DNA of 40,342 nucleotides, from assembly GCF_027257955.1 (NCBI RefSeq), contig NZ_JANZNQ010000022.1, positions 1-40,342 of the forward strand, given 5' to 3'. The position numbers were made by a program, and so were the translations under genes. Positions 5,965-35,948 of the stretch are shown piece by piece. This DNA is from Zhongshania aquatica. GTDB taxonomy: Bacteria; Pseudomonadota; Gammaproteobacteria; Pseudomonadales; Spongiibacteraceae. Under the pieces are notes generated by a model, which was given only the letters and a program-made list of their open reading frames with translations, had not been told where the DNA came from and searched no databases. The first letter of the stretch is position 1. Each line of letters starts with the position of its first letter.

Positions 5965-7365
5965 ATGACAGTAGTTCTCGAAGCCGATTATTTAGTTGTT
6001 GGTGCCGGCGGGATGGGTATGGCGTTCGCGGATGAGATACTTTCTCATAGCGAAGCTTCTATTATCATTATTGACAAAAATTTTAGTCCCGGTGGTCATT
6101 GGAATTACGCATATCCTTTCGTGCGTCTTCATCAAACATCAACATGTTACGGGGTAAACTCCACGGAGTTGGGTGGGGATCAGCGAGATGAATTTGGTTT
6201 GAATAAAGGGTGCTATGAGTTAGCGAGCGGTCGTGAAGTAGTAGCTTACTTCGATAACGTGATGCGGCGGCGATTCCTGCCTTCTGGGCGAGTTCAATAT
6301 ATTCCCATGTGCGAATATGACAAAGAGTCTGGTACCGCTAAAAACTTAGTAAGTGGCGAAATATACGAGTTTCGTGCAAAGAAAATAGTTGATTCAACAT
6401 ATTTGAATGTGACTGTACCTTCACAGCGTGCCCCCACCTTCGACTTGTCAGCGGATGCAAAAGCTGTGGCGGTCAATGAATTGCCTAGAGTGGCTCCGTA
6501 CTATGATAATTTTGTTATTGTGGGGTCGGGTAAAACCGGGATGGATGCTGTGTTGTTTTTGTTAAGCAATGGCATTGATCCTGACCGAATAACTTGGATT
6601 ATGCCAGCCGACGCGTGGATGTTTGACCGGTTTACTGTTGATCCAGGTAGGAAGTTTAGTGATCCAGTGACGCAATATGCTATTGGCATATTACAGTGCG
6701 CACTTGAAGCCGAAAATTATCGTGATTTTTACGATCGTCTTGCGGGTCGTGAATTGATTGTCCAGCTAGATTCGGCAATCAAGCCTACACGTTGGCGTTG
6801 CGCAACTTTCACCCCTCTTGAGCTTGAGCAGTTACGTAGAGTTAAAAATATCGTACGGATGGGCTATCTTGAAGCTGTGACTAATACAGAAATGAAATTG
6901 TCTAAAGGGGGGCATCCCGTTCCCAGTAATGCCATTTTCATTGATTGCGCTGCAGATGGCTTGCCTAAAGTGCCGGAAGTTAAAGTGTTTGATGGTAATA
7001 GGATTACATTGCAGACTGTCCGCATGTGTCAGCAGGTCTACAGTGCTGGCTTCATAGGTAACGTTGAATGTAATGTTGATGCCGATGAAGACCGCAAGAA
7101 TGAGCTGTGTCGCGCCGTTCCTCTGCCGTACCTTGAAATTGATTACTTACGTTGTGCTCTGAAAAATACTATAAATATGTCTGTTTGGTTAACTGAGCCA
7201 GCGGTTGTGAAATGGATTAACGAGTCGCGAACTGATCTATTTAGTCCGCTACTTGATTTTGATGATCCTGAGATCGCTGCAAATATTCAAGCTATGGGTG
7301 AGCTAATTCAGCAAGCAATTCCGAAAATGGAGTCGCTATTAAGCGAAGGTATGCAGACTGCTTAG
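5965..7365 (+). CDS. FAD/NAD(P)-dependent oxidoreductase, monooxygenase-like
   Basis: A 466-residue flavoprotein with a FAD-binding Rossmann motif GAGGMG at 13-18, a GGHWNY segment at 43-48 resembling the GGxW of flavin monooxygenases, and a second dinucleotide-binding motif GSGKTG at 187-192 for NAD(P)H. The two-Rossmann layout places it near FMO and Baeyer-Villiger-type proteins, but the typical FxGxxxHxxxW fingerprint is not seen. It is not StyA-like. It is transcribed alone and followed by a good terminator. Its place at the edge of an epoxide-isomerase and aldehyde-dehydrogenase cluster suggests an oxidative step on the substrate, which is inference. Substrate unknown. Confidence 0.65.
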   Translation: MTVVLEADYLVVGAGGMGMAFADEILSHSEASIIIIDKNFSPGGHWNYAYPFVRLHQTSTCYGVNSTELGGDQRDEFGLNKGCYELASGREVVAYFDNVMRRRFLPSGRVQYIPMCEYDKESGTAKNLVSGEIYEFRAKKIVDSTYLNVTVPSQRAPTFDLSADAKAVAVNELPRVAPYYDNFVIVGSGKTGMDAVLFLLSNGIDPDRITWIMPADAWMFDRFTVDPGRKFSDPVTQYAIGILQCALEAENYRDFYDRLAGRELIVQLDSAIKPTRWRCATFTPLELEQLRRVKNIVRMGYLEAVTNTEMKLSKGGHPVPSNAIFIDCAADGLPKVPEVKVFDGNRITLQTVRMCQQVYSAGFIGNVECNVDADEDRKNELCRAVPLPYLEIDYLRCALKNTINMSVWLTEPAVVKWINESRTDLFSPLLDFDDPEIAANIQAMGELIQQAIPKMESLLSEGMQTA

Positions 7366-7475: not shown

Positions 7476-7967
7476 TTACTTATTCTTTTGTTGTTTTAGA
7501 AAATGCCATACGCCGAGCAGGGCTAGTGAGATCATGATATGTACACCGACGACAGGTATATATCCAGAAAGATAAATGACGTCATTTGCTAGCCCAGGTT
7601 TAAATGGGCCGCCACCAAATGCTAGGCCTCTAGTTCCAAGTAGCGCGTTGAGGGTGGCTTGGATGGTAAATAGCCATGTGGTAGCTAGCGCAGACCAGAA
7701 CAACCATTTCAATTGAGTGCTTCCAAGTATTATAAGCCGGCCTCCCGCGCCAATACCCAGAAGAACTAAACCGTGCGTGATTGCCTCCATGTGAGCCATA
7801 CGCCATGCGCGTCCATCGTCTGGGATTCTTATAGCTATATCAATAGGGAGGGGCCATAGTACGATACGTTCAAGTAGTGCAAAAAACCAAGTCCAGCCTA
7901 TGAGTAGGCTTAAAGCAAGTAGCCCAAATCCATTAAGTAAAAATAGTGCGCGTGTTCTGTCAGGCAT
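7476..7967 (-). CDS. Divergent styrene-oxide-isomerase-like membrane protein
   Basis: A 163-residue protein with four hydrophobic segments (about 8-30, 62-82, 86-110, 133-157). It can be aligned by eye with the StyC-like protein encoded at 14087: both have IP-x4-W-x2-AH in the first loop and RGL-x-FG-x3-F-x2-G between helices three and four. The histidine that binds haem in styrene oxide isomerase (His58) corresponds to His59 here. The position of Asn64 is His65, and the catalytic Tyr103 appears to be replaced by a non-aromatic residue. It is probably a distant family member with another substrate or role. It lies alone on the minus strand downstream of paaY. Family membership is inferred from these shared positions. 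Confidence 0.55.
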   Translation of the reverse strand: MPDRTRALFLLNGFGLLALSLLIGWTWFFALLERIVLWPLPIDIAIRIPDDGRAWRMAHMEAITHGLVLLGIGAGGRLIILGSTQLKWLFWSALATTWLFTIQATLNALLGTRGLAFGGGPFKPGLANDVIYLSGYIPVVGVHIMISLALLGVWHFLKQQKNK

Positions 7968-8109: not shown

Positions 8110-8706
8110 CTATATATATTCCTTCTTTCTTTGGTGTGAAGCACTGGTTAGCCTAACGCCCTGTGGCTTGCAAATTCGTTCTGGTCTGCATTCAATTAAT
8201 GAGTCATGACTACGCTTCGCAAGATTTTGATACTCAAGAGTTCCGTTTTCTTTCCATTTTATTTCGTCTGTACTTAATTCTCGTTTGATCGTGGCTGGGG
8301 AGCCAAAAACGAGTGTATTTGATGGCGATCTAAAAGAGTCTGGTACTAAGCTATTCGCGCCGATGATGCAGTTCGCGCCAATATGAGCATTATCTAAAAT
8401 TGTACAATTCATTCCCACTAAGCAATTTTCTTCGAGTGTGCACCCGTGAATTATACTGCTGTGACCAATATGACTATTTCGTCCTAGTATGGTTTGCCTT
8501 CCGGGGAAACTATGGATGACGCAGCAGTCTTGGATATTTGACCCTTCATCAACATAGATCTGCCCAAAATCACCACGTAATACCGCGTTCGGCCCTATAT
8601 AACACTTTTTGGAAATGATTACGTCTCCAATTATTACCGCGCTCGGATGTACATAGGACTCAGAGTCTAAGAAAGGTGTGACTCCGTCTATTGAATAAAA
8701 AGTCAT
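8110..8706 (-). CDS. paaY: Phenylacetate pathway hexapeptide thioesterase PaaY
   Basis: A 198-residue protein of left-handed beta-helix type, with hexapeptide repeats from about residue 15 to 150 (VHPSAVIIGDVIIS, YIGPNAVLRGDFG, NIQDCCVIHSF, HIGHSSIIHGC). Length and the opening YSIDGVTPF match PaaY, a gamma-carbonic-anhydrase-like thioesterase that removes inhibitory CoA adducts formed when the Paa pathway stalls. The metal-binding histidines are present. Start chosen at ATG 8706, where the PaaY-like sequence begins and a GGAAC lies upstream; a longer frame to 8748 has no support. It is divergent from paaK and separated from the main paa operon by about 18 kb. Confidence 0.8.
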   Translation of the reverse strand: MTFYSIDGVTPFLDSESYVHPSAVIIGDVIISKKCYIGPNAVLRGDFGQIYVDEGSNIQDCCVIHSFPGRQTILGRNSHIGHSSIIHGCTLEENCLVGMNCTILDNAHIGANCIIGANSLVPDSFRSPSNTLVFGSPATIKRELSTDEIKWKENGTLEYQNLAKRSHDSLIECRPERICKPQGVRLTSASHQRKKEYI

Positions 8707-8999
8707 TGCGCTAAGTTCCAGTCTTAGGTGATGACAGACATGATACATAAATATGCAATGTAGGTATATCGTTGTATCCTGACGGCGAGTGGCAGGCTCT
8801 CTTAATCAATACTTTCCGCGCTTCTATAACCTATGTTGCCGTTAAATTTCTTGTCCGAACGGTGGTAACGGTTGAAGGTTTAATCCGGCATACTAACTTC
8901 TAATGCGGGATTGCACGCTTCGGCATTTCCTCTGCACCAGCTGCGATGTTCGGTTAAGTCTTTTGATGCATATTGCTTGATATCAGGAGGAAGAAGAAT
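8707..8999. promoter_or_regulatory. Divergent promoter region between paaY and paaK, with a possible PaaX box
   Basis: This region must carry promoters for both genes. CATGATACAT at 8739-8748 recurs exactly at 13738-13747 before the StyC-like gene. Its reverse complement shares TGTATCAT with the duplicated 14-mer before paaZ. It is therefore a candidate binding site for PaaX or another regulator common to these operons. No coding frame is supported here. Confidence 0.4.
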
Positions 9000-10310
9000 A
9001 TGTCCAATATAATTTCACGCAGAAAATCTGAGCTAGAGCCAATTGAAGTAGCTAGTAGAGCCGAGATCGAATCGCTACAGCTATTACGGCTAAAGAAAAC
9101 GCTTGAGCATGCGTATAAGAATGTACCATTTTATAAAGATAGCTTTGATAAGGCTGGGGTTCATCCGGGTGATATAAATTCGCTTTCGGATCTGTCTCAA
9201 TTTCCATTCTTGGTGAAGCAAGATCTTCGCGACAATTATCCGTTTGGTCTTTTTGCTGTGCCGAGGGAGGAGGTGGTTAGGATTCATGCGTCAAGCGGAA
9301 CGACAGGTAAGCCTACAGTTGTTGGTTACACCGCTAATGATATAGATACCTGGGCTGATCTAGTAGCAAGGAGCATATACGCAGCAGGCGGCCGTGCTGG
9401 AGATATTATTCATATAGCGTACGGGTACGGTCTTTTTACAGGCGGTCTCGGTGCGCATTATGGTGCTGAAAGACTTGGCTGTACTGTTATTCCGATGTCT
9501 GGTGGGCAGACTGAAAAGCAGGTTCAGCTAATCCAAGATTTTAAGCCAAAAATTATCATGGTTACGCCATCTTACATGCTCAACTTAATAGAAGAGTTTG
9601 AGCGTCAAGGTATTGATCCTCGAGAAACCAGCCTGAAGATTGGCATTTTTGGTGCCGAGCCTTGGACAAATGCGATGCGTAAGGAGATAGAAGAGCGCAC
9701 AGGTATAGACGCAGTAGATATATACGGACTTTCAGAGGTAATGGGACCAGGGGTTGCGAGTGAGTGTGTTGAATCGAAAGACGGCCCGGTAATCTGGGAG
9801 GATCATTTCTATCCGGAAATTATTGACCCTATTACTGGCGAAGTTCTGCCAGACGGCGAAGAAGGTGAGTTGGTGTTTACTTCACTTACCAAAGAAGCGC
9901 TTCCAGTTATTCGATATCGGACGCGTGATTTAACTAAGCTATTGCCACCGACATCTCGCGGGATGAGAAGAATAGGGAAAATTACAGGCAGGTCGGATGA
10001 CATGCTTATTATCCGAGGCGTGAATGTCTTCCCTACGCAAATTGAAGAGCTCTTACTTAAAATCCCAGAGCTTGCGCCGATTTATCTAATTGAAGTTTCA
10101 AAAGATGGAAATTTAGATTCTGTATCTGTGTCCGTAGAGCTAGATCAAAGTGCGGCAGGCGTTTCGATAGACCGCAGAGAAGAGGTCGTTAAGCAGCTTC
10201 AGCATCTGGTAAAAACCTACGTCGGAATAACTATTATCATTAATTTGCAAGCTCCAGGTGAGATGGAGCGATCGGTAGGTAAAGCTAAGCGTGTTATAGA
10301 TCGTCGATGA
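9000..10310 (+). CDS. paaK: Phenylacetate-CoA ligase
   Basis: A 436-residue adenylate-forming enzyme, the usual PaaK length. The AMP/ATP loop SSGTTGKP is at 98-105, followed by YGYGLFTGGLGAHYG, the IFGAEPW motif, IYGLSEVMGPG, and a C-terminal domain with YRTRDLT, GRSDDMLIIRGVNVFP and the GKAKRV lysine region. It converts phenylacetate, ATP and CoA to phenylacetyl-CoA in the cytoplasm, the entry to the Paa pathway. ATG 9000 is chosen because AGGAGG precedes it; a TTG nine codons earlier would put the ribosome binding site inside the gene. It is followed after one base by the thiolase-like gene, so the two are translationally linked. The aldehyde dehydrogenase downstream would supply its substrate. 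Confidence 0.93.
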   Translation: MSNIISRRKSELEPIEVASRAEIESLQLLRLKKTLEHAYKNVPFYKDSFDKAGVHPGDINSLSDLSQFPFLVKQDLRDNYPFGLFAVPREEVVRIHASSGTTGKPTVVGYTANDIDTWADLVARSIYAAGGRAGDIIHIAYGYGLFTGGLGAHYGAERLGCTVIPMSGGQTEKQVQLIQDFKPKIIMVTPSYMLNLIEEFERQGIDPRETSLKIGIFGAEPWTNAMRKEIEERTGIDAVDIYGLSEVMGPGVASECVESKDGPVIWEDHFYPEIIDPITGEVLPDGEEGELVFTSLTKEALPVIRYRTRDLTKLLPPTSRGMRRIGKITGRSDDMLIIRGVNVFPTQIEELLLKIPELAPIYLIEVSKDGNLDSVSVSVELDQSAAGVSIDRREEVVKQLQHLVKTYVGITIIINLQAPGEMERSVGKAKRVIDRR

Positions 10311-10311: not shown

Positions 10312-11484
10312 ATGAGTGTCTACATTTGTGGTGCAGTGAGGACACCATTCTGCAGTGGCAAAGGCCTGCTTTCTTCATTTAACGTTGATGCTCTTGCCGC
10401 GCTGCCGATGTCTAACCTAATTAGCAGAAATAAACGTGTAGATTGGTCCGCAGTGGAGGGCGTAATCTTAGGTTGTGCTGATGAAACCGATGAGGACGGG
10501 GGCAATACGGCTTACCGTGCCGCAGTTCGAGCTGGGTTTTCGTCGGAAGTGATTGGCGAGATAGTTAGTCGATCAGTAAATTCAGGCTTGCATGCTGTTA
10601 GTTTATCGGCAGATGCAATCTTGTCAGGAAAGTGGGATTTAGTTGTTGCAGGTGGCGTAGATAAAATTCACAAAGACGCCAGTTTTCTGTTAAGCGCGAA
10701 TAATAATGAAGATGGCTGTTTACTTGAAGTGAGATCAGCTGCTTCGCGCAATGGTCTTAGCTTAGATGTAGAAGCTATGGAGAGTTTGGCTAACAGCTTT
10801 GCAATATCGCGTGAAATGCAAGATGAGTTTGCGTTGCAGAGTCGCTTGCGGTGGCGCCGCGCCGCGGGTACAGGTTTCTTTGAGCGAGAAACTATGGCCG
10901 TTAGGCAGCCTGAGGATAGTAATGGTTTCGTTGTTCGCGCGGACTACATGGCGGCATCGGCTACCTCACTTGTAGATTTATCTAAATTGAATCCACTCGC
11001 TGGTAAAGGTGGCACAGTGACAGCTGGCAATATCTCGGCTGGCAGGGTAGGTGCTTGCGCGCTATTGCTTTCGTCGGAGGCTGCCGCAAATCGATACGGT
11101 TTAATTCCTAGGGTAAAAATATTGGCGCACTCGATGGTGTGTGTTCCGGCAGAACAAATAGGTGTTGGATCCGCTGTCGCTATCAACAAAGTGCTCGGTG
11201 TTGCTGGTTTGTCGCTATTGCAAATGGATTGTATAGAGCTAAGTGAGGACTCTGCTGTTCAGGTTTTGGCGATTATTCAGGAGCTAGACCTTCCGGTTGA
11301 CTCCGAGCGCATCAATTCAAATGGTGGATCAATCGCAGTTGGACATCCCGTAAGTGCAGCCGGCGCACGTTTAGTTATAACTGCAATTAATCAGCTAGAG
11401 CGAAATGGTGGTCGGTATGCTCTTTGCGCAGTGTGTGATGGTGCTGAAAACGCTGTGGCAATAATAATCGAGAAAATAAAATAA
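10312..11484 (+). CDS. Thiolase-fold protein lacking the nucleophilic cysteine
   Basis: This 390-residue protein aligns along its whole length with the PaaJ thiolase encoded at 32647, from the N-terminal GAVRTPF to the C-terminal ALCAVCDG. The catalytic nucleophile is missing: PaaJ has VNRLCGSG with Cys93, here the segment is VSRSVNSG with Val89. The NEAFA motif is changed to SEDSA (311-315), and CIGVGQG to CDGAENA. His345 of GHP and Cys375 remain. Normal thiolysis is therefore unlikely. It might perform a decarboxylative, hydrolytic or purely structural acyl-CoA function, perhaps with PaaK, which it follows by one base, or with the EthD protein behind it. The reading frame is intact and codon use resembles its neighbours, so it is not an obvious pseudogene. 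Confidence 0.75.
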   Translation: MSVYICGAVRTPFCSGKGLLSSFNVDALAALPMSNLISRNKRVDWSAVEGVILGCADETDEDGGNTAYRAAVRAGFSSEVIGEIVSRSVNSGLHAVSLSADAILSGKWDLVVAGGVDKIHKDASFLLSANNNEDGCLLEVRSAASRNGLSLDVEAMESLANSFAISREMQDEFALQSRLRWRRAAGTGFFERETMAVRQPEDSNGFVVRADYMAASATSLVDLSKLNPLAGKGGTVTAGNISAGRVGACALLLSSEAAANRYGLIPRVKILAHSMVCVPAEQIGVGSAVAINKVLGVAGLSLLQMDCIELSEDSAVQVLAIIQELDLPVDSERINSNGGSIAVGHPVSAAGARLVITAINQLERNGGRYALCAVCDGAENAVAIIIEKIK

Positions 11485-11509: not shown

Positions 11510-11818
11510 ATGATTAAGGTCAGTGTGATGTACCCCTATAAAGACGGTGCGATATTCGACCACGAGTATTATAAAAACAAACATCTCCCATTATTGAAAG
11601 AAAAAATGGGTGATTATTGTGTTAGATATTCGGTAGATCGAGGGTTGAGCGGAGCAGCGCCGGGTAGCCCGCCAGTATATATAGCTAGTTGCCATATCTA
11701 TTGTGAAAGCGTCGAGAGTTTTTATGCCGGTTTTGGCCCGAGCCGGAAGGAAATTCTTGCTGATGTTATAAATTATACCGATCTAACTCCTGAGATGCAG
11801 ATTAGCGAAGAGGGTTGA
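11510..11818 (+). CDS. EthD-domain protein
   Basis: A small 102-residue protein of the EthD type, a dimeric alpha/beta-barrel ferredoxin-like fold. The opening VSVMYPYKDGAIFDHEYYKNKHLPLL is the family hallmark, with the conserved histidine in NKHLPL. EthD proteins are often found beside oxygenases and other catabolic enzymes, and their biochemical role is mostly unknown. The ATG has a GGAGG upstream and lies 25 bases after the thiolase-like gene, so paaK, the thiolase-like gene and this one form an operon. Confidence 0.75.
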   Translation: MIKVSVMYPYKDGAIFDHEYYKNKHLPLLKEKMGDYCVRYSVDRGLSGAAPGSPPVYIASCHIYCESVESFYAGFGPSRKEILADVINYTDLTPEMQISEEG

Positions 11819-11947: not shown

Positions 11948-13426
11948 ATGAGCACGCATAATTCGAACTGTTTTGAGCCGCTTGCTCTTAACCACTTTGT
12001 GAGTGGAATGGATATGGCTGCCTCTGATGGTGGAAGGCTGTCACTTATTAGCCCCGTTGACGAGTCGGAGTTTGCGACATGCGCGCGTGGCACAAAAGAA
12101 GATTTGGATGTCGCAGTCAGTGCTGCGCGAGGTCAGTTTGATGGCGGTGAATGGAGTAAGCTTAGCGGTTCAGATCGAGGTGTTCTGCTAAATAAGCTTG
12201 CTGACTTGGTTGAGCGCGATTCAGCTCTGATTGCTGATATGGACGCACGTTGTATAGGCCGTGTCGGGATCGAGCCGACGTTATTAGATCTGCCGAACTC
12301 AGTGCAGACATTGCGAACCTCTGCTGGTTGGGCTGACAAAATTGAAGGGCGAACTATTCCAACTCCGGGGTATATGGGGCGATCGACGCTTTCTTATACG
12401 CTGCAGCAACCAGTCGGTGTGGTAGGTGCAATTGTGCCGTGGAACACCCCGTTCATGATTACCTGCTGGAAGCTTGGTCCTCTACTCGCTGCTGGTTGCA
12501 CAGTAGTTGTTAAGCCTTCAGAAGAAACCCCGCTTTCTGCTCTGCATTTAGCGAAACTGTGTAAAGAAGCAGGTTTTCCTGATGGTGTGGTAAATGTTGT
12601 TACTGGCTCGGGAATTGTAATTGGACGGGGGCTCGCAGAGCATCCTGGTGTTGATAAGATTACATTCACCGGTAGTCCTGCTGTTGGGCAAGATATTCAG
12701 CGCGTAGCAGGTAAGCAGTTTAAGCGAGTATCGCTTGAGCTTGGTGGTAAGAGTCCACAGATTGTTTTTAATGATGCAGACATTGACGCGGCCATTGGCG
12801 GGTGCGCAATGGGTGTTTTCTTTAATCAGGGGCAAATTTGCGCCGCGGGTTCTCGTATTTTGGTTCACAACGATATCGCAGATGAGTTTGCCGAAAAATT
12901 GGCTGCGGTAGCAAATGGGATAGCGGTTGGTGATCCAAGGTCTGACGGTATACAGATGGGGCCCGTCGCTAAAAAAGGGCAGTTTGATCGAGTTAATAAT
13001 TATATTCGCACCGGTGTAGACGAAGGCGCAAAATTACTAGCTGGAGGCGAGAGCGAATATAAGAAAGGTTGGTTTGTGAAGCCGACAGTATTTTCCCGGG
13101 CGACAAACCAAATGACGATTGCCCGAGAGGAAATTTTCGGGCCAGTAGCGACAGTGATTCCTTTCTCCGACGAGGCAGAAGCGTTGCAGATAGCTAACGA
13201 CTCCCAGTATGGGCTTGCGGCAACTATTTGGACTAAAGACGTGATGCGTGCTCACCGTTTAGCTCGAGGCTTGAAGGTGGGTGCGGTTGGAGTGAATTGC
13301 TGGGCTCCGATTGACGCTCGGCTACCCTGGGGTGGCACAAAATCAAGCGGTATCGGCCGGGAATGTGGTTTGTCAGGTGTTTTGGCATACACTGAAGAAA
13401 AAGTCATAACCATTTTGACTGATTAG
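11948..13426 (+). CDS. Aldehyde dehydrogenase, phenylacetaldehyde type
   Basis: A 492-residue NAD(P)-dependent aldehyde dehydrogenase with all catalytic parts: PWNTPF with Asn166, the coenzyme loop FTGSPAVG at 240-247, the general base Glu264 in ELGGKSP, the nucleophile Cys298 in GQICAAGSR, and EEIFGP further on. The C-terminal [20 protein letters not shown] segment resembles phenylacetaldehyde and related aromatic aldehyde dehydrogenases (FeaB/StyD functional class). It would oxidise the aldehyde produced by the StyC-like isomerase to the acid used by PaaK. An AAAGGAG site lies eight bases before ATG. The 129-base gap from the EthD gene may hold its own promoter; it contains the small palindrome GTGCA-N5-TGCAC at 11831-11845. 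Exact substrate inferred from context. Confidence 0.8.
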
Positions 13427-14086: not shown

Positions 14087-14590
14087 ATGCTTTCTAGCTT
14101 GCAATATAAAATGTCAGGTCATGGCGTCCTAATGATATTTTGTACGTTATTATTTGGTGTGCTTTATTGGATGAATCTTGTGGGTGGCTTCGAAATTGTA
14201 CCTGGATATATGGTGCATTTTGAGATTCCGGGGACTCCTGAGGGATGGAAGCGAGCGCATACTGGGCCGGCGATGAATGGAATGATGGTCATTGCTGTGG
14301 CATTTGTTCTTCCTACGCTGAATTTTTCCGAGAAAATGGCGAAGATACTTGGTTACATCATTATTCTTGATGGCTGGGGGAATGTTGGTTTTTACTTCTT
14401 TGGTAACTTCACGCCTAACCGTGGTTTAAGCTTCGGTGACAATAAATTCGGTAGTGGCGATATTTTCAGTGCATTGGCACTTGGGCCCGCATATTTATTC
14501 GGTGTTTTGGCGCTTGGTGCATTGTTTATTATTGGTGTGAGAGCCCTTCAAGTCGCGAAGATCAATAGAAGCAATGTAGAAAATTCATAG
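14087..14590 (+). CDS. styC: Styrene oxide isomerase-like membrane protein
   Basis: A 167-residue integral membrane protein with four transmembrane helices, very close in length and sequence to StyC of Pseudomonas, aligning without gaps over the first 115 residues. StyC performs the Meinwald rearrangement of styrene oxide to phenylacetaldehyde at a membrane-bound haem b. The known functional residues are all present at identical positions: haem ligand His58 in RAHTGP, Asn64 in PAMNG, and Tyr103 in NVGFYFF. ATG 14087 follows a GAGG-type site. It is preceded by 660 bases of regulatory DNA and followed by an AraC-type regulator. No styrene monooxygenase genes accompany it, so the physiological epoxide is uncertain. 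Confidence 0.9.
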   Translation: MLSSLQYKMSGHGVLMIFCTLLFGVLYWMNLVGGFEIVPGYMVHFEIPGTPEGWKRAHTGPAMNGMMVIAVAFVLPTLNFSEKMAKILGYIIILDGWGNVGFYFFGNFTPNRGLSFGDNKFGSGDIFSALALGPAYLFGVLALGALFIIGVRALQVAKINRSNVENS

Positions 14591-14727: not shown

Positions 14728-15753
14728 ATGAATGAAGTATTCGATGCAAGTAGTCATCAAGCTGTGTTTTCTCGGTTAGGTTGGTGTACCTCCAATACTA
14801 AGCAGCTTGGTAACTTTCGTGAGTGGCAGGATTTTGTTCACGACAATTTTCCGTGGCTAGAGCACAGAAATAATACTAGCGGGCAATTTGAGGCAGAAGT
14901 AAGTACGCATCATTTTGGTAATGATGAAGTCAATGCAATAGATCTTAGTACGATTAGCGCGTCTGACGGCGAGGTTATTAGAACTCGGCATTTAGCAGAG
15001 GTCGCAGATGCAGGATTTATAAAAATTATTTGGCAGTTAAATGGAAAAATTCATTTAGAGCAAAATAGCAAAAGTTGTTTGATACTTCCTGGGCAGGCTG
15101 CTGTGTGCGATACAGCGCGCCCTTATAAAATCGGAATGACCGACAGCTCGCGATTCGCAGTGCTGACTCTGCCACATCAAGCGTGTGTCGGCTGGGATTA
15201 TATTAGTGAATTTATATGCGGTACTAGGTTGCAGAACGGAGCTTCAATTAATGCGGCCTTAGGTTCGTTGATGGCGCTTGCCGCTGCAGACCAGGATTCC
15301 GTAACGAGTGAAGATGTCTTAACTGTTATTCAAGCTATTCAGTTAATGACTACCAAGGCACTTCATCGCTCGGCGGCAGTTCAAGGCGTGTCGAAGTTTG
15401 ATAACCCGAGGCTGTATAAAGTCCAGCGCTTTATACTTGAAAATATTTCAAATTCAAACTTTAGTACCGACGATCTAGCTTCATCAATGTGTATGTCTCG
15501 AAGATCTTTGTATATGCTTTTTGAGGGTAGCAGTACAACACCGGCGCGATTGATACGAGATACTCGCTTAGAGCTTGCTATGCATATGCTTGCGGATAAT
15601 GGTCAGAACCATAGAAAAATTACAGATATCGTATTTGATATTGGATTTAATGACTACGCAACTTTTAGTCGCATATTTAAAACGCAGTATGGTAAAACGC
15701 CAAGCGAATTTCGCTCGACTTCCCTGTCGTTATCTCGAGATTGTGTCCATTAA
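14728..15753 (+). CDS. AraC-family transcriptional regulator, FeaR-like
   Basis: A 341-residue regulator. The C-terminal part (about 230-335) has two helix-turn-helix units typical of AraC/XylS proteins: DDLASSMCMSRRSLYMLF and ITDIVFDIGFNDYATFSRIFKTQYGKTPSEFR. The N-terminal 200 residues resemble the AraC-binding-like domain of FeaR and similar activators of aromatic side-chain degradation. It lies 137 bases after the StyC-like gene and ends in a terminator, so it likely activates the isomerase and aldehyde dehydrogenase genes in response to a pathway compound. Target promoters and ligand are inferred. Confidence 0.82.
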   Translation: MNEVFDASSHQAVFSRLGWCTSNTKQLGNFREWQDFVHDNFPWLEHRNNTSGQFEAEVSTHHFGNDEVNAIDLSTISASDGEVIRTRHLAEVADAGFIKIIWQLNGKIHLEQNSKSCLILPGQAAVCDTARPYKIGMTDSSRFAVLTLPHQACVGWDYISEFICGTRLQNGASINAALGSLMALAAADQDSVTSEDVLTVIQAIQLMTTKALHRSAAVQGVSKFDNPRLYKVQRFILENISNSNFSTDDLASSMCMSRRSLYMLFEGSSTTPARLIRDTRLELAMHMLADNGQNHRKITDIVFDIGFNDYATFSRIFKTQYGKTPSEFRSTSLSLSRDCVH

Positions 15754-16011: not shown

Positions 16012-17040
16012 ATGCCAGCCATAAATCGCCGCCTAGTTTTAAAAGAGCGCCCCAGATTTCAGATACCTACCGCAAAATGTTTTCGGCTTGAAGAGGTAGT
16101 GATTCCAAAGCCCGTTGAGGGGCAGATTCGTATAAAAACTACCTGGTTAGGTATGGATCCAAATCAGTTTTCGAAAGTCAAAAAAGTCTCCGATCAGTCG
16201 AAGCCAATTGATATCGGAGCCGTCATGTACGGCGCTACGGTCGGTGTAGTCGATATTTCAAATCATCCAGATTTTAATGCTGGTGACGTTGTTCATGGGT
16301 TGTGGGGGTGGCAGGAGTTCCATGTCTGTGATGGCTACGGAATTACTAAAATTGCCAACGATGGATTGCGACCCTCGTACTATCTTGGTGCACTAGGTGC
16401 TGCAGGTTTTGGTGCTTATCTGGCGGTGAGCGATGTATTAAAGGTTGGTCGGGGTGATGTGGTCTTTTGCAGCGCCGCAACCGGCGCCTTGGGCCAGATA
16501 GTGGGTCAATTAAGTAAGTCCAAAGGCGCTATCGTCTACGGGTCGGCGAGTTCGGATGAAAAATGCAACTTAGCTGTATCGGAGCTTGGTTATAAAGCCT
16601 GCTTTAACTATAAGGACCAAGATTTTGAACGTATCGTTAGTGATCGAATCGAGGCCGGTATTGATGCGATGGTAGTGTCGGCCGGCGGAAAAACGTTTGA
16701 CGCTACATTTCCTATCATGAATGTTGGTGGTTGTATCGCAGTATGCGGATTGATGGCGCTCTATTCGATGTCGCAATTGCCGATAACGTCTGACCGATCG
16801 TTTATGATTTTAAATGAAATACTACTGAAGAGACTGTCTATTAAGGGGTCGATGGTGTTGGATAAATTAAATACCGATGTCCACTTTCAGTTTTTGTCAG
16901 AGATGAAGAAACTAATAAATCACGGAGAGGTTACGCCGATTGAGCACGTTGTTGAGGGCTTGGAGAATGCGCCAGATGCTCTTCGAGGGGTATTCGACGG
17001 AGATAACATCGGCAAATGTGTTGTTCACGTTGCCGATTAG
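16012..17040 (+). CDS. Medium-chain reductase, NADPH-dependent (CurA/PTGR-like)
   Basis: A 342-residue member of the zinc-independent branch of medium-chain dehydrogenases/reductases. The GroES-like part (to about residue 125) contains WLGMDPNQF, typical of the leukotriene B4 dehydrogenase / CurA group, and the Rossmann domain starts with SAATGALGQIVGQL near 160. Zinc-binding cysteines of alcohol dehydrogenases are absent. Enzymes of this group reduce double bonds conjugated to carbonyls with NADPH. AGGAGA precedes the ATG. It is transcribed alone between the regulator and the transporter gene. A role in processing an unsaturated aldehyde or ketone of the pathway is possible but not shown. 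Confidence 0.75.
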   Translation: MPAINRRLVLKERPRFQIPTAKCFRLEEVVIPKPVEGQIRIKTTWLGMDPNQFSKVKKVSDQSKPIDIGAVMYGATVGVVDISNHPDFNAGDVVHGLWGWQEFHVCDGYGITKIANDGLRPSYYLGALGAAGFGAYLAVSDVLKVGRGDVVFCSAATGALGQIVGQLSKSKGAIVYGSASSDEKCNLAVSELGYKACFNYKDQDFERIVSDRIEAGIDAMVVSAGGKTFDATFPIMNVGGCIAVCGLMALYSMSQLPITSDRSFMILNEILLKRLSIKGSMVLDKLNTDVHFQFLSEMKKLINHGEVTPIEHVVEGLENAPDALRGVFDGDNIGKCVVHVAD

Positions 17041-17255: not shown

Positions 17256-19706
17256 ATGGAAAATTTAAGATTTAAAATAGCCCGCTGGATCGTGTCACAT
17301 CGCGCTCAGGTTGCCTGCGTGTTTCTTATTATTACCATTGGATTTGCCATTGGTGTGCCACGAGTAGACATAAGAACCATATTTGCAGATTTACTCCCTT
17401 CTGACGATCCATTTGTTCAGACTTTTAAAGATCACCCTAATTTCGGTAATCCGTTAACAATTACCGTAATGGTAAAGCGTTCGGATGGTGGGAATATCTA
17501 TAACGAAGATACCTTGAAGAAGGTGTGGGATTTGACTAGAAATATAGATCTTATTGAGGGTGTTGATCACGATAGGATTGTTTCGATAACAACTGAGAAG
17601 GCGAATTATGCTGAGGCGACTCCTATGGGAGTCGAGATGCAACCTTTAATGGGGGATCGAATTCCCAAAGGAAAGCAGGAGCTTGATGCCCTTCAGCGGA
17701 ATGTAGAGCGCTCGCCAATGGCGCGAACCTATCTTGTCTCATCCGACGAAACTTCAACACTTATTCGCGCAGGCTTCCACGAGCACTTGTTAGATTATGG
17801 TCATGTGTTCGATGAAATTCAGAAGCTTGCAAAGGATGCTGAAGATGGTGGTCATACCATCCATGTCGTTGGGCAGCCGGTCCTGACGGGGTGGGTGTAT
17901 CTTCTTCAGGAGCAAACCTACACAATTTTCGCAGTAACTGTTGGCTTGCTTATCATTGCTCTTGCCTTCTATATGCGGAATTTCGCTGGCGTTGTCACCC
18001 CGGTTGTATGTAGTTTTGTCGCCGCAATATGGGGCTTCGGTTTGGTTGGTTGGTTAAAGTCGCCAATTGAGCCATTGCTTATGGTTGTACCTTTGCTTTT
18101 AGTGGCGCGGTCTTTCTCTCACTGTGTTCAGTATACAGAGCGTTATTACGAGGTCTTTAGTGAGCTTAAAGATCGAAAATTAGCATCTGAAGCGACGCTG
18201 GCAGTGATGATGGCGCCTAGTGTGTTTGGCATAATTACCGACATGGTCGCGATAATGTGTATCGGTGTAGCGCCGATCCCAGCGATGCAGAGATTTGCTT
18301 TGTTCTGTGGTTTCTGGGCATTTTTCTTAATCCCGACGGGCGTCATGCTGATTGCCGTTATGCTCTCATATCTTCCTACACCGAAAAATATCGACGATAT
18401 TATCGGTGGCGATCGCGAAAAGGGGGTTCATGGTTTTCAGAAGCGTGTACTTGAGGGTGTGGCTTCTTTAATTACTGGAAAACGAATTCCTAAGATAACT
18501 GCAACTATCGTATGTATTGTATCAATAGTGGTTATTATCCTTTCGCGGCAGGTTGAAATTGGAAACCCAACAGAAGGTAGTAATCTTCTTTGGGATAATT
18601 CCGAGTTTAATGTTGGCGTTAGAGATGTTAACGATCATTTCCCCGGTGTGAACTCTCTGGAAATTATTCTTGAAGCCAAGGATCCAGATAATGTCCAGCA
18701 GCGTGCTGCCCGCACGGAAGAGGCATATGCCTTAACGAAAGAAATATTACGCGTTGCTTTAAGTCAGGAGCATCCAGCAAAGGCCGCGCGCTCATTCTCG
18801 GACTTTATGGAGGAGGGGTCACGTCTTTACTCTGGAGGCCATCCAGCGTGGCTTTCATTAGACCCCACTGATAGATCAGTAAACGCTGCGGGTGTAGCAG
18901 TTGCCTTTGGTCAAAATCCACTTAACTTTGCTGATGTAACTGACTTCCAGTTCCAGCACAGCGCTATTTCTTTATTTTATAGAGACAATAAGCAAGAAAC
19001 TATTGAGAGGGCGCTGATAGCTGCACAAGCCGCAGTTGATGCTGTTGGAACCGATCATAAGGGAATCACTGTCCGTATGGCTTCTGGGACTATAGCGTTG
19101 CAGCATGCGATGAACTCGGTTGTGAAACGTTATGAGTGGATCTTGCTAGGGCTTGCATGCTTAGCCATATTTTTCATCGCAAGTTATATGTATCGCTCTT
19201 TTGTTGCCTCGTTAGTGTTGCTTGTACCTGTGGTCTTAGCGAACTTCTATTTAACGGCCACGATGTCTGTTTTGGGAATTGGTCTAGATATTAACTCGGT
19301 CATGGTTGCTGTTCTTGGTGTTGGCGTGGGTATTGATTACGGCATCTACTTGTTGTCACGAATTTGCGAGGAATATCACGCACAAGGTGAAGACTGGGAT
19401 CGAGCCATAACAGAAGCACTTACAACTACCGGTAAAGCAATAATGTTTACCGCTTCTATTATGCTGATCGGGATTATGCCTTGGTATTTCCTGTCAGATC
19501 TAAAGTTTATGGCTGATATGGGTCTGTTACTTTCAGCAATTATGTTGATCAATATGGTGCTTGCTTTGCTTGTGTTGCCGTTGATCGTATCGGTGCTAAA
19601 ACCTAAGTTTGTAACGAGAACGGACTTGATGGTTGGTGAAGGTATTGACCTCTCTTGGTTTAGTGAAGAAAAAACACGAGAAAAAGAGCAGGGCGTTAGC
19701 GCATAA
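17256..19706 (+). CDS. RND / MMPL-family transporter
   Basis: An 816-residue inner-membrane protein with two repeats of one helix, a large periplasmic loop and five helices: helices near 17-35, 225-375, 425, and 630-790. The signature GVGVGIDYGIYLLSRI lies in the second helix block, and the charged residues of RND proton relays are visible (GIDY). MMPL-type transporters of this size move hydrophobic molecules and occur with DUF1302, DUF1329 and Ycf48-like proteins in clusters for steroids, terpenes and other lipophilic compounds. It is the first gene of that envelope group here. Direction of transport is not evident. Confidence 0.85.
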   Translation: MENLRFKIARWIVSHRAQVACVFLIITIGFAIGVPRVDIRTIFADLLPSDDPFVQTFKDHPNFGNPLTITVMVKRSDGGNIYNEDTLKKVWDLTRNIDLIEGVDHDRIVSITTEKANYAEATPMGVEMQPLMGDRIPKGKQELDALQRNVERSPMARTYLVSSDETSTLIRAGFHEHLLDYGHVFDEIQKLAKDAEDGGHTIHVVGQPVLTGWVYLLQEQTYTIFAVTVGLLIIALAFYMRNFAGVVTPVVCSFVAAIWGFGLVGWLKSPIEPLLMVVPLLLVARSFSHCVQYTERYYEVFSELKDRKLASEATLAVMMAPSVFGIITDMVAIMCIGVAPIPAMQRFALFCGFWAFFLIPTGVMLIAVMLSYLPTPKNIDDIIGGDREKGVHGFQKRVLEGVASLITGKRIPKITATIVCIVSIVVIILSRQVEIGNPTEGSNLLWDNSEFNVGVRDVNDHFPGVNSLEIILEAKDPDNVQQRAARTEEAYALTKEILRVALSQEHPAKAARSFSDFMEEGSRLYSGGHPAWLSLDPTDRSVNAAGVAVAFGQNPLNFADVTDFQFQHSAISLFYRDNKQETIERALIAAQAAVDAVGTDHKGITVRMASGTIALQHAMNSVVKRYEWILLGLACLAIFFIASYMYRSFVASLVLLVPVVLANFYLTATMSVLGIGLDINSVMVAVLGVGVGIDYGIYLLSRICEEYHAQGEDWDRAITEALTTTGKAIMFTASIMLIGIMPWYFLSDLKFMADMGLLLSAIMLINMVLALLVLPLIVSVLKPKFVTRTDLMVGEGIDLSWFSEEKTREKEQGVSA

Positions 19707-19740: not shown

Positions 19741-19765
19741 GTCGCAAGCGGTTAGATATTGCGAC
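19741..19765 (+). other. Intercistronic hairpin between RND and first DUF1329 genes
   Basis: GTCGCAA (19741-19747) and TTGCGAC (19759-19765) are perfect 7-bp arms with an 11-base loop and no T-run. It may influence stability or relative expression of the operon messenger. Confidence 0.45.
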
Positions 19766-19794
19766 ACGTAAATAATAATTCACCGGAGGGTGTT

Positions 19795-21186
19795 ATGCAT
19801 ATTCGTAAATACGATTTAAATTTTGGCCGGCGTGAGCTGCTTAAAGGTATAGCGTGCGGTGCCGGTACCGGTATTCTGATGCCAATAGAAAAAGTTATGG
19901 CTAAGGACATGCCTCTTACAAACGCATATCCCGATGAGCTATATAGCATTGAAGCACAAACAAAGGGGAAAATTAGCGTAGGAGATTACATAACTAAGGC
20001 AAATGTAGAGCATGCTAAACACATTCTCGACCCTTCAATGTATGACCAGATAAAAAATGCTGGGCGTCGAATTAAGATAAAAGCTCCAACTACTGATTTA
20101 CGCCAACTCTTTAACCATGCTTATTACGAAGCAATGCAGCGCAACATAGCTGAGGGCCGAACAGGTAAGTTTAATGCAGATGGAAATGTGGTGGACCCGC
20201 AGGGAAATCCTTGGGGGGGTGGTGTTCCATTTATTAGTCCAAAAACCGGTGTTGAAGTCTGGGCAAACATGGCGATGAGCTGGGGCCGTGCAGATGCCAA
20301 CACTTACGCAATTAAGCAGTGGGACTTTGGCGCCGATGGAAAGCTCGAGTATCAGTACGACTTCCAATGGGTAGAGCTTCAAATGCAAGCGCGGACAGAT
20401 AGAAAAGTGTTCCGTGGATATGATAAGGAGCTTAGAAGACAAACTGTTTATTTTACTAACTCCGCAGATGTTCGCGGTACGTCATTTCTAAGTAACTGGT
20501 CTGTAGATCAGCGTCAGATTCCTGATCTGTATGGTTACTTGCCGGAGTTTCGCCGCGTTAGACAGTTCCCGGCCAACCAGCGCTTCGAGCCGCTTATCCC
20601 TGGCGCGACTTGGTTCCTTACCGATCCATGGGCAGCCGGCGATCCGTTCTTGACATGGGGTAATCATAAGATTGTTGAGCGGAAACCAATGCTTATCGCT
20701 TGTAGCGGTAACTTCTCTGGAACGGATGATAATTGGCAGCCAAAAGAGCAGGAAGGTAATCCTATATTTTGGGAGTCGGAATACGAAATGGCACCGGATA
20801 TTATCGTAACTTCATGTGAGCCTGTAGCCTTCCCTCGGTCACCAGTGAGTAAAAAGCTGGTATATGTTGATGCCCGTAATAGCGTGCCGTGTGGTTGCGT
20901 GAGATATGACCGTCAAGGAAAACTATGGGCTAACTTCGAAATGGCGTTCGGTCAATTTGTCGGCGGCGGGAAAGACGGTAAGCGAGTCGTAATGAGCGCG
21001 GATGGCAAGACGCCTGCTTGGTCTTGGACTTACGTAATGATTTACGATCACCAGAACAAGCGTATGTCGCGTACCCATCATGCCAAAAAAGGCGTTGGCA
21101 CCGAATCTTTATTCCAGATTGATGAAGATTGGTTGTTCGAAACCTATTGTACTCAACAGGCATTGCAGTCCCTTGGGCGTGCATAA
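19795..21186 (+). CDS. DUF1329 family outer-membrane-lipoprotein-sorting-like protein, copy 1
   Basis: A 463-residue DUF1329 protein. The start at ATG 19795 follows GGAGG; the longer TTG frame is rejected. The N terminus has an arginine pair (GRRELLKG) before a weakly hydrophobic stretch ending near MAKD, more like a Tat-type than a Sec signal. The mature part contains NAYPDELYSIEA, repeated aromatic motifs and RQFPANQRFEPL, shared with copy 2 at 24475. DUF1329 proteins are thought to be periplasmic and LolB-like, and accompany DUF1302 proteins in lipophilic-substrate clusters. Function is unproven. It belongs to the same operon as the RND gene. Confidence 0.8.
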   Translation: MHIRKYDLNFGRRELLKGIACGAGTGILMPIEKVMAKDMPLTNAYPDELYSIEAQTKGKISVGDYITKANVEHAKHILDPSMYDQIKNAGRRIKIKAPTTDLRQLFNHAYYEAMQRNIAEGRTGKFNADGNVVDPQGNPWGGGVPFISPKTGVEVWANMAMSWGRADANTYAIKQWDFGADGKLEYQYDFQWVELQMQARTDRKVFRGYDKELRRQTVYFTNSADVRGTSFLSNWSVDQRQIPDLYGYLPEFRRVRQFPANQRFEPLIPGATWFLTDPWAAGDPFLTWGNHKIVERKPMLIACSGNFSGTDDNWQPKEQEGNPIFWESEYEMAPDIIVTSCEPVAFPRSPVSKKLVYVDARNSVPCGCVRYDRQGKLWANFEMAFGQFVGGGKDGKRVVMSADGKTPAWSWTYVMIYDHQNKRMSRTHHAKKGVGTESLFQIDEDWLFETYCTQQALQSLGRA

Positions 21187-21236: not shown

Positions 21237-21262
21237 TGCCCGATGAAAGATGGAGATTGGGA

Positions 21263-22273
21263 ATGAAGTCGCGGCTATCAATTTGGTATTTGGCACTTTT
21301 GATGTTGGTATTAATTAAGCCAGTTCTGGCTGCGGATGTAGATGAAAGTCTCAATTCCGTAGTTAGCCAAGCAACACCGACAGATCGCTTATTTAGTGTC
21401 GATTTCAATAAAGACACGGGCGTCGCAGTGGGTGAAGCTGGCTTAATAATGCGAACTGACGATGCAGGTCAAACTTGGAAAAAAGAGAAGTCACCAACAA
21501 CTCTCGGCTTAATTAGTGTCGCCCATAGTGGCGGCAGAGAGATTGCTGTCGGGCAAATGGGTGTAGTTATCTACCGTGATGGATCTTCTGAATGGAAAAT
21601 ATCCGATAGCGGCTCAGATATGCGTCTATTAAAAGTTGATTTAAATAGCCATGGGCTAGCGGTGGCTACAGGCGCATTCGGTACGCTTCTACGTTCTCTC
21701 GACGGCGGAGAAAGCTGGCAGCTAGTCACTCCAGATTGGGCAACGCTATATGACTCTGGGGCTGGTGACACTGCTGTTATTCGCGATGAACCAACAAATT
21801 ATGTCGTTAAAGTTTTAGAGGACAACAGAATCATTGTTGGTGGTGAATACGGTCAGTTAAATGTTTCCGAAGATGGTGGTGAAACATGGTCTGTTCTGTA
21901 TCGGCATCCAGAAGTAGATGGAGATACAGCGGCCACATTCTTTGATTTGAAACTGTCGGGAAAAACTGGGTATGCGGTTGGTCAAGCGGGTTTGGTTATT
22001 CGCACCGATGATGCCGGCAAAACATGGACATCAGTTGCAGCTAATACTAAAGGTAGTTTCTTTGCAGTTACGTATACCGGAGCAAGCAAAGTATTTGTGG
22101 TTGGCCAGCGGGTGGCGATGAAAAGCATCAATGGCGGCGAGAGCTGGGAGCAATTTGAACCTTTAGATCTTAGCCTCAATTGGTACTCGGGCTTAGGCCA
22201 AACTGCACCTAACAACGGCCGGATTGTGGCTGTGGGGCATAGCGCGCGTATCTTGTCTCTTTCACCTTTTTAA
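21263..22273 (+). CDS. Ycf48-like beta-propeller protein, exported
   Basis: A 336-residue protein with a Sec signal peptide (hydrophobic stretch about 8-23, cleavage after LAA-like residues near 25) followed by BNR/sialidase-type repeats. At least five copies of the G-x-x-G...DDAG/DGG-x-[ST]-W unit are visible, such as TDDAGQTW, LDGGESW, EDGGETW, TDDAGKTW and INGGESW, giving a beta-propeller. Relatives are annotated as Ycf48 or photosystem II stability factor-like, but in proteobacteria they occur beside RND and DUF1302/1329 genes. GGAG precedes ATG 21263. Likely a periplasmic partner of the transporter; mechanism unknown. Confidence 0.8.
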   Translation: MKSRLSIWYLALLMLVLIKPVLAADVDESLNSVVSQATPTDRLFSVDFNKDTGVAVGEAGLIMRTDDAGQTWKKEKSPTTLGLISVAHSGGREIAVGQMGVVIYRDGSSEWKISDSGSDMRLLKVDLNSHGLAVATGAFGTLLRSLDGGESWQLVTPDWATLYDSGAGDTAVIRDEPTNYVVKVLEDNRIIVGGEYGQLNVSEDGGETWSVLYRHPEVDGDTAATFFDLKLSGKTGYAVGQAGLVIRTDDAGKTWTSVAANTKGSFFAVTYTGASKVFVVGQRVAMKSINGGESWEQFEPLDLSLNWYSGLGQTAPNNGRIVAVGHSARILSLSPF

Positions 22274-24459: not shown

Positions 24460-24474
24460 ACTGAGGACTTACAG

Positions 24475-25845
24475 ATGGCTCGTTGGATACCAGGTATTAG
24501 CCGTAGAAATCTCTTGAGGTATAGTACCTCCATTGTTGGTGCTGGTGTTTTGGCGCCGTTATGGCCGACGATAGGACGATCGGGAGAAATTGAAAAGGCG
24601 TATCCGGACGAACTATTATCAGTTGATGCATATACAAAGGGAAAAATTAGTACCGGTAGTATGATTACTGCAGACAATGTTGACGCTGTGAAAAATCTTT
24701 TAGAGCCTGCGAAATATCATCATGTAAAAAATATGGGGCGAAAACTCAAGGTTGTACCAACGACTACTGATTGGATGAAGCTCGGGCCGTGGGAGTATTT
24801 GGAAGCGACATTAAGAAACCAGGGTAAAGCTAAATTCAATGATAAAGGAAATGTGGTTAATGATGACGGTAAACCATGGATTGGTGGGCATCCATTTCCC
24901 GGCACACAGAATGCCTTGGAGCTATTTGCTGGGCTAACGTTATCGTGGGGGCGGCACGACGCTAGTCTCTATGCGATGAAAGAATATGATGTTGCGAGCA
25001 ATGGGAAAGTTGATTATAAGTACGATCTTGTATGGGCTGAGCTCTCTCCTGTTGGCCGCGTAACTCTTGATCCAAAGCCCTATTGGAACAAGCATATTGA
25101 TAAGCTGAGATTTAATACCGTAGTTTATACCTCACCGGCATCAGAGAGCGGTGCTAGTTATCTTAACATTTGGGATTACGATCAAAATAAATTGCCTGAT
25201 TTGTACGGTTATGTGCCTAGCTTTAGAAGAATTAGACAGTTTCCTAGTAATCAACGATTTGAACCCCTCGTGCCTGGCTCAGCTTTATACCTATCCGATG
25301 CTTGGGCCGCCGGAGACCCGCTTCATACATGGGGGAATTACAAGGTAATTGGTCGGCAGCCTTTACTTGCCGGCGTTTCAGGGGGCTGGAACTCGAAACA
25401 CTCAAACTGGGAGCATGGCGTTCACGGTGGAGAGTTAGGTGAAACTTTTTTTGATAGTGTTGTTGAGATGGTGCCAGAGACGATAGTGTGTGAGGCGGAA
25501 CCAACGGGATTTGCAAGGTCGCCTGTTAGTAAGAAGCGCGTTTGGTTTGATGTTCGCAACGGTATGCCGGTTGCGATGGTAACTTATGACCGGCAAGGTA
25601 AGCCATTTCGCTCCTTTGATGGTTGTTATGGCCTATATGACGATGGTGAAAATAAGTTTATGGATGGAAAACATCCATACTGGTCATGGGCATATTTACA
25701 TGCTTATGAATTTCAGTCAGGGAGAATGACGCGGATAGAGCAGGTTAAGGAGTTGGATAGTGGCCATGTCAGTTCTGCAAATAACGATTCGATTTATGAT
25801 GACTATCTAACGCATGCTGCTTTGCAGCGTCTTGGTCGTTCATGA
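24475..25845 (+). CDS. DUF1329 family protein, copy 2
   Basis: A 456-residue paralogue of the protein encoded at 19795, sharing KAYPDELLSVDA, YTKGKIS, YGYVPSFRRIRQFPSNQRFEPL and the SPVSKKRVW segment. The N terminus again carries an arginine pair (SRRNLLRY) before a hydrophobic stretch ending around APLWP, Tat-like in style. Two DUF1329 genes bracket the Ycf48-like and DUF1302 genes. A perfect terminator just upstream suggests it is expressed at a different level from copy 1. Whether the copies are redundant or bind different ligands is not known. Confidence 0.8.
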   Translation: MARWIPGISRRNLLRYSTSIVGAGVLAPLWPTIGRSGEIEKAYPDELLSVDAYTKGKISTGSMITADNVDAVKNLLEPAKYHHVKNMGRKLKVVPTTTDWMKLGPWEYLEATLRNQGKAKFNDKGNVVNDDGKPWIGGHPFPGTQNALELFAGLTLSWGRHDASLYAMKEYDVASNGKVDYKYDLVWAELSPVGRVTLDPKPYWNKHIDKLRFNTVVYTSPASESGASYLNIWDYDQNKLPDLYGYVPSFRRIRQFPSNQRFEPLVPGSALYLSDAWAAGDPLHTWGNYKVIGRQPLLAGVSGGWNSKHSNWEHGVHGGELGETFFDSVVEMVPETIVCEAEPTGFARSPVSKKRVWFDVRNGMPVAMVTYDRQGKPFRSFDGCYGLYDDGENKFMDGKHPYWSWAYLHAYEFQSGRMTRIEQVKELDSGHVSSANNDSIYDDYLTHAALQRLGRS

Positions 25846-29626: not shown

Positions 29627-29722
29627 CTAAAGATAGCGCTCATGAGGCTCTTGGTGATTTAGAGAGTATTGAAGTGCAGATATTTAGTTATAAATAATAA
29701 ACAGCACAGTGGAGTCTGGTTT

Positions 29723-31765: not shown

Positions 31766-31780
31766 GCGAGGAGAATTGTT

Positions 31781-32572: not shown

Positions 32573-32646
32573 TCTATCTAGTAGCGAACGCTGGCGCTGT
32601 AAGAATTACAAGAGTGTAAGCGCGATTAAGGGTTTAGGAGAAGAAA

Positions 32647-33861: not shown

Positions 33862-33882
33862 GGAATTAAAAGGAGTACTAAA

Positions 33883-34854: not shown

Positions 34855-34861
34855 GGAGAAA

Positions 34862-35155: not shown

Positions 35156-35163
35156 GGTCTGCA

Positions 35164-35931: not shown

Positions 35932-35948
35932 AGCGTGGGAATAACGCC

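Follow-up and report, generated by a model that had tools for sequence, protein, structure and literature searches.

The locus described here raises the question of how a bacterium that encodes a styrene-oxide isomerase obtains its epoxide when no styrene monooxygenase gene accompanies the isomerase gene, given that styABCD are contiguous in Pseudomonas. The stretch analysed, hereafter the window, is 40,342 nt long and is the entire contig C22 of the Zhongshania aquatica genome (G000; 4.49 Mb in 107 contigs, completeness 100%), and it carries the isomerase gene styC within a cassette of conserved neighbours (Table 1). The answer that we favour, with somewhat less than even confidence, is that a working StyC resides in a sty cluster without styAB, and that an aryl alkene is epoxidised for it by an enzyme other than StyA, the best candidate being a nearby flavoprotein that we call FADox.

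The identity of the isomerase itself is secure. The product of 14087-14590 matched the NCBIfam StyC model NF045734 over its whole length at 250.3 bits (cut-off 150), and a phmmer comparison with PDB sequences aligned its residues 1-158 with residues 15-172 of the chain in the cryo-EM styrene oxide isomerase 8pnu (E 2.9e-76). Positions 54, 58, 64, 103 and 112 read W, H, N, Y and R; in the available text of PMC11374702, H58 is the haem ligand of styrene oxide isomerase, and Y103 and N64 hold the epoxide oxygen. The initial annotation, which had named a StyC-type isomerase with H58, N64 and Y103, was thus borne out. Judged by its sequence, the gene is confirmed to encode the styrene-oxide isomerase StyC, as an ordinary member of its family, and it is the setting that is new. 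Values of dN/dS for StyC were 0.03 (G000-G010) and 0.04 (G006-G004), which are rough estimates as dS is saturated in both pairs, and 0.51 in the near-identical pair G000-G007, a figure based on very few changes. The ALDH-StyC stretch looks recently exchanged, because between G000 and G007 StyC and the aldehyde dehydrogenase (ALDH; together window 11948-14590) show a dS of 0.01-0.02, against 1.3-1.9 for the neighbouring FADox and SOI2. Two separate origins of StyC inside the genus were hinted at by a quick tree and not upheld (StyC monophyly, approximately unbiased (AU) test p 0.40).

The absence of styA, first noted within the 40 kb, extends to the whole genome. The StyA model NF045732 had 0 matches across all contigs of G000, the window included, and returned 750 and 588 bits from two StyA-bearing control genomes (G146 and G422, respectively), which rules out a StyA hidden elsewhere in G000; a Pfam search with Smoa_sbd was silent in the control too and was not relied on. 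Among 57 relatives, 14 had a match to NF045732 at E 0.001, none of them above the cut-off: two were of whole or near-whole length (G027, 215 bits; G056, 199 bits) and the other 12 were fragments of at most 23.2 bits. The six StyC-bearing congeners (G000, G001, G004, G006, G007 and G010; StyC above 230 bits) comprised three genomes with no StyA match and three with fragments of 19-20 bits. In a set made up of the window and 16 further stretches (congener cassettes and some G000 contigs), nine StyA and StyB queries found nothing at E 0.01; the StyB search extended no further than this set. A search for remnants of styAB in the gap between the ALDH and StyC genes of the six genomes returned noise only (best E 0.25), and no repeats were found around this gap. 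Of the two genes that mark the styABCD type, styA thus did not turn up anywhere in the genome, nor styB in the stretches searched for it. By gene content, the window cassette is a sty cluster lacking styAB, because related clusters in another order keep the run styA-styB-styC-feaR-FADox.

Along with StyC, a conserved set of genes recurs across the genus. FADox, the StyD-like ALDH, the EthD-family protein, StyC and the FeaR-like regulator lie near one another in all six StyC-bearing congeners, and the zinc alcohol dehydrogenase-like gene, the RND transporter, the two DUF1329 genes, the YCF48 gene, the gene for the 684-aa protein and the PaaY-like gene are likewise kept in every cassette. The thiolase-family gene is present in all six and divergent in four (28-48% identity), PaaK is found in five (the G006 stretch stops short of its position), and SOI2, a divergent StyC-family paralogue, is found in five (in G001 it falls outside the fetched stretch). 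Gene order and strand vary between species. FADox of the other five congeners is 81-93% identical to that of the window, and within the genus it occurs in 6/6 StyC-bearing genomes and 0/12 others; as the genes are linked, this counts as one observation and not six. At the end of contig C44 of G000 (L131, 9552-9987), a fragment of an SPFH-like gene (98%, 42 aa) adjoins a FADox fragment (68%, 106 aa), which may be what is left of a second, degraded copy.

The association recurs in the order of the Salinisphaeraceae metagenome-assembled genome (MAG) CPC72, of which 85 genomes were searched. FADox relatives with 61-74% identity occurred in nine of these; at E 1e-100, all nine have StyC above 200 bits, whereas StyC was found in 3/76 genomes without FADox (12 in total) and FADox in 0/73 without StyC (Fisher p 5e-10, a test that ignores shared descent). 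Three genomes (G443, G437 and G444) carry a contiguous run styA-styB-styC-feaR-FADox; G459 has styA, styB, feaR and FADox together with StyC some 26 kb away, and in G422 FADox follows styABC with two other genes between. For G465, G435, G442 and G450, the stretches fetched around FADox (just 3.9 kb for G450) contain no neighbouring sty gene, and styA-styB-styC lies elsewhere in the genome. Of the three StyC genomes that lack a close FADox, two (G430 and G453) carry styAB next to StyC, and the 20 kb of G454 contain neither. A tree of 32 FADox proteins placed the 21 from isomerase-bearing genomes on one side of a single branch, which is weakly supported (77/47), and the six congeners in one clade (100/99) beside G422 and G465. 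To judge by its distribution, FADox has long accompanied StyC.

This companionship belongs to a part of the family. In the class at large (369 genomes), an isomerase-family match was found in seven genomes and, at E 1e-60, a FADox match in six. The link with StyC is confined to the close FADox group, because in G198, G310, G405 and G401 matches to the FADox family reach 386-443 bits while the isomerase family has none; conversely, StyABC can apparently work without FADox, because G146 has StyA and StyC and no such FADox match. No isomerase flanked the FADox-family members of 40-45% identity at 12 loci, although several of the flanks available were short. Among plasmid records, FADox relatives (30-42% identical) occurred in nine and StyC in seven, with styA beside styC in all three examined. 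More divergent pairs were found in the CPC72 order, where 28 matches exceed the StyC cut-off, 12 at over 200 bits and 16 at 154-192 bits. In seven of the 12 loci fetched from the latter group (G453, G454, G485, G456, G423, G483 and G425), the gene directly 3' of the isomerase, on the same strand, encodes a FADox homologue (35-38% identity). The isomerases of these pairs read W, H, N, Y and R at the five sites, and the seven fetched stretches hold no styA; G453 has styAB on another contig, and the other six genomes were unsearched for StyA.

For the predicted structure of FADox (pLDDT 93.2), the best Foldseek matches, at E values near 1e-11, were monooxygenases of the Baeyer-Villiger and flavin-containing types, and its fold, with two dinucleotide-binding GxGxxG motifs, is that of a class B flavoprotein monooxygenase. 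The model matches both these monooxygenase types and bacillithiol disulphide reductase alike, the fold being common to reductases. No match to FxGxxxH, which we take to be the fingerprint of the two monooxygenase types, was found in the window FADox, and curated families did not claim the protein: the ArsO model scored 20.5 bits against a cut-off of 425, and Pfam gave only MurD-like_N, below its cut-off.

In the pathway that we propose, an aryl alkene, either styrene or a close analogue, would be converted to its epoxide by an enzyme other than StyA. FADox, as an NAD(P)H-dependent protein resembling flavin monooxygenases, would fill the roles of StyA and StyB in one chain; the ferric haem of StyC would open the epoxide and, through a hydride shift, give the arylacetaldehyde, which the StyD-like dehydrogenase would oxidise to the acid, PaaK would convert to the CoA thioester and the paa gene products would carry onward. 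The FeaR-like and PaaX proteins would act as regulators, and the RND module would export the toxic hydrocarbon. The downstream genes by which the initial annotation had expected the product to be taken on are present, namely a StyD-like ALDH (scoring below the cut-off of the StyD model), a PaaK above its model's cut-off and genes labelled as paa. The same annotation had left a choice between another route to the epoxide and another epoxide. StyA was not found in G000 or, fragments of 19-20 bits apart, in the five congeners, and of the two options another route is the better supported, because the downstream genes correspond to the conversion of phenylacetaldehyde to phenylacetate and phenylacetyl-CoA, because like genes adjoin styABC in the CPC72 order, and because a second flavoprotein tracks StyC. 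A different epoxide, such as a ring- or alpha-substituted styrene oxide, is possible. The terpene epoxide that had also been suggested is less likely because PaaK and the paa genes follow, although the cassette does contain an RND module resembling AmeABCD, a monoterpene efflux system.

FADox as the epoxidase is a best guess from sequence and a structural model, to which we give slightly less than an even chance, and there is evidence against it. All nine FADox genomes of the CPC72 order keep styAB, which weakens the idea of FADox as a simple replacement for StyA. What was observed directly is the content of genes, the lack of a StyA match, the residues of the active site, the pattern of co-occurrence and the predicted fold; the catalytic steps, the substrate, the export role and a putative epoxidase activity of FADox are inferred.

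The coexistence of FADox with styAB would fit better with an epoxide made by an oxygenase encoded elsewhere, whether by a P450, a PF10118 protein of the di-iron type or a soluble multicomponent monooxygenase that is likewise di-iron, with FADox serving another role; we consider this unlikely, while ranking it first among the alternatives. In the search for other epoxidases that the initial annotation had suggested, PF02332 di-iron monooxygenases gave six matches in G000 (contigs C15 and C96), some of them adjoining genes for an MmoC-like reductase and a 2-hydroxymuconic semialdehyde dehydrogenase, and were present in G001 and G006, yet had no match in G004, G007 or G010. With PF02332 absent from three of the six StyC-bearing congeners, a soluble di-iron monooxygenase is ruled out as the shared partner of StyC. 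Contig C23 of G000 also holds two PF10118 genes together with two isomerase paralogues; in the loci examined, however, PF10118 accompanies such other paralogues and not the window type of StyC.

An epoxidase might not be needed at all if the cassette salvages or detoxifies aryl epoxides or arylacetaldehydes from outside, for example from neighbours or formed by light. The remaining cassette would act from the epoxide or aldehyde onward and includes a presumed export module, as such a role would lead one to expect, but the presence of FADox with StyC and the pairs of FADox with StyC-like proteins would then go unexplained, and we hold salvage to be improbable. More improbable still is a scheme in which StyC itself, provided by FADox with hydrogen peroxide or reducing power, epoxidises the alkene as a haem peroxygenase before isomerising it. 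The reductase-like fold of FADox would suit such a role, and a 2025 paper, going by its title, reportedly describes peroxidase and peroxygenase activity of styrene oxide isomerase, though the title terms this activity unnatural. That styAB is present and merely lost in an assembly gap is scarcely credible in spite of the division of G000 into 107 contigs, given its completeness and the single-contig StyC-bearing genomes G004 and G010, in which no StyA match exceeds 20.3 bits.

G000 encodes three isomerase-family proteins besides StyC that the initial annotation had overlooked: SOI2, in the window, and two on contig C23. SOI2, whose gene is convergent with that of FADox, keeps the haem histidine (H58) and has H/Q at the N64 position and A at the Y103 position. 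Six isomerase-family matches occur in one genome, mostly under the StyC cut-off. On C23 (L005, 225-3244), the two isomerase-family genes flank two PF10118 genes and adjoin a MalT-like regulator, and the genes for SOI3 and the PF10118 protein MH1 overlap by 4 bases. Across the fetched loci, 56 of the 119 isomerase-family reading frames have a PF10118 gene within 4 kb. The MH1 model has a ferritin-like helical fold with an invariant E..ExxH..E..EExxH pattern, that is, the two ExxH motifs and two further Glu looked for in a di-iron site. The accessible part of PMC8960859 treats PF10118 as a protease candidate, which has no bearing on the isomerase link.

Other arrangements of this kind vary from locus to locus. 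Tandem pairs of isomerase-family genes, whose products perhaps form a heteromer, lie beside one PF10118 gene in L220, L221, L222, L224, L225, L226, L227 and L229. A P450 gene overlaps or abuts a weak isomerase-family gene in two sister-genus genomes (L117, 8631-10344; L118, 8616-10317), and in G438, G446 and G449 genes near isomerases may be AlkB-like, going by tblastn matches of 25-29% to an open reading frame tentatively named AlkB from its His motifs; the P450 pattern used near isomerases was likewise a motif. On the Rhodococcus opacus plasmid pR1CP1 (L236, 6077-8098), styC2 adjoins a gene annotated as a nitric oxide synthase oxygenase. More surprising as a lead is the apparent pairing of isomerase-family genes with PF10118 and other oxygenases, which is drawn from genomic context and predicted folds. 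It may be that StyC belongs to a broad family of haem epoxide isomerases plugged into varied oxygenases (StyAB, a flavoprotein of FMO type, a P450 and the PF10118 di-iron proteins misnamed hydrolases), that any such pair would oxidise an alkene to an aldehyde in the anti-Markovnikov sense, and that PF10118 and FADox would be two new families of alkene epoxidase, a proposal that we would sooner doubt than accept.

Biocatalysis seeks ways to oxidise alkenes to aldehydes in the anti-Markovnikov sense. If FADox or PF10118 proteins do feed the isomerases, they would be natural single-component or di-iron alternatives to StyAB, and many proteins annotated as metal-dependent hydrolases would gain a testable function. 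In the available text of PMC5874493, the described natural route from alkene to aldehyde is StyAB with StyC. Among the listed entries and passages from the open-licence literature that we searched, none describes a StyC cluster without styAB or an isomerase link to PF10118. In this marine bacterium, the latter half of the styrene pathway is encoded without its customary first enzyme; gene neighbourhoods here and in relatives suggest that the isomerase may be supplied by other oxygen-using enzymes, and its chemistry would then extend beyond styrene. An absence of styA need not mean that a styrene-type pathway is absent, which matters when pollutant degradation is inferred from genomes.

Table 1. 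Features of the window around styC, with the best family evidence for each.
Feature	Position	Strand	Evidence or remark
FADox, flavoprotein with two dinucleotide-binding domains, flavin-monooxygenase-like fold, candidate epoxidase	5965..7365	+	
SOI2, divergent StyC-family paralogue	7476..7967	-	NF045734 22.8-23.2 bits, below StyC cut-off
PaaY-like hexapeptide-repeat protein	8110..8748	-	TIGR02287 248 bits, under cut-off 319.6
PaaK phenylacetate-CoA ligase	8973..10310	+	TIGR02155 726.6 bits, over cut-off 646.3
Thiolase-family protein	10312..11484	+	
EthD-family protein	11510..11818	+	TIGR02118 114 bits, over cut-off
StyD-like phenylacetaldehyde dehydrogenase (ALDH)	11948..13426	+	best family NF045736 (StyD) 668.7 bits, under cut-off 800
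StyC, styrene-oxide isomerase, haem b membrane protein, 167 aa	14087..14590	+	H58, N64, Y103 kept
FeaR-like AraC-family regulator	14728..15753	+	NF007243 149.7 bits, under cut-off 199
Zinc-type alcohol dehydrogenase/reductase-like protein	16012..17040	+	
MMPL-family RND transporter, AmeD-like	17256..19706	+	best NCBIfam HAE3 139.6 bits, under cut-off 351.9
DUF1329 protein, first copy	19759..21186	+	
YCF48/BNR protein, AmeC-like	21257..22273	+	
684-aa protein of RND module, presumed outer-membrane part	22329..24383	+	no Pfam match; kept in 6/6 cassettes
DUF1329 protein, second copy	24475..25845	+	
PaaX repressor	26094..27023	-	
paa genes paaZ, G, J, A, B, C, D, E, I	29669..38206	+	author's labels, no family scan; annotated Phaeobacter paaA, C, D match window genes

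Some genes of the window merit separate mention. The thiolase-family protein reads SRSVNSG in what we take to be the region of the usual active-site Cys, where the PaaJ-like protein (32647-33861) reads NRLCGSG, and the former may be inactive as a thiolase. The 684-aa protein carried the label DUF1302 on our own presumption. At 542-1864, a gene for a DUF6088 protein is followed by one for an AbiEii-like nucleotidyltransferase, and the two could form a toxin-antitoxin pair of type IV. The available part of PMC13186573 mentions that Zhongshania and Spongiibacter have unusual paa regulators.

Compared with known systems, the window resembles the styABCD clusters of Rhodococcus opacus 1CP and the Phaeobacter inhibens plasmids in having StyC and a StyD-like dehydrogenase; it shares with the former a nearby AraC-family regulator and with the latter an EthD gene and paa genes alongside, EthD following styC in Phaeobacter too, though its sequence is not close. 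It differs from styABCD in lacking styA and styB and in having the extra flavoprotein, the divergent second isomerase and the RND module. FADox shares its predicted fold and two GxGxxG motifs with the Baeyer-Villiger and flavin-containing class B monooxygenases, but is 10-17% identical to them and lacks FxGxxxH. The MH1 model has the same ferritin-like fold as the CmlI/AurF N-oxygenases and R2-like ligand-binding oxidases, but with 7-15% identity among the matches listed and Foldseek E values of 0.05 and weaker, and MH1 is annotated as a hydrolase. The available text of PMC6394551 describes AmeABCD of Castellaniella defragrans as an efflux system for apolar monoterpenes; compared by that description, the RND module of the window (17256-25845) likewise unites an RND transporter (best model HAE3, below its cut-off), a YCF48-type protein and DUF1329 in one gene run, and differs in its two DUF1329 copies and in the 684-aa member without a Pfam match. 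Whereas the styA-styB-styC-feaR-FADox clusters of G443, G437 and G444 keep the styAB that the window cassette lacks, their StyC is 66-71%, FeaR 45-46%, FADox 61-62% and DUF1329 57-58% identical to the window proteins, and the ALDH of G443 and G437 is 71% identical to that of the window.
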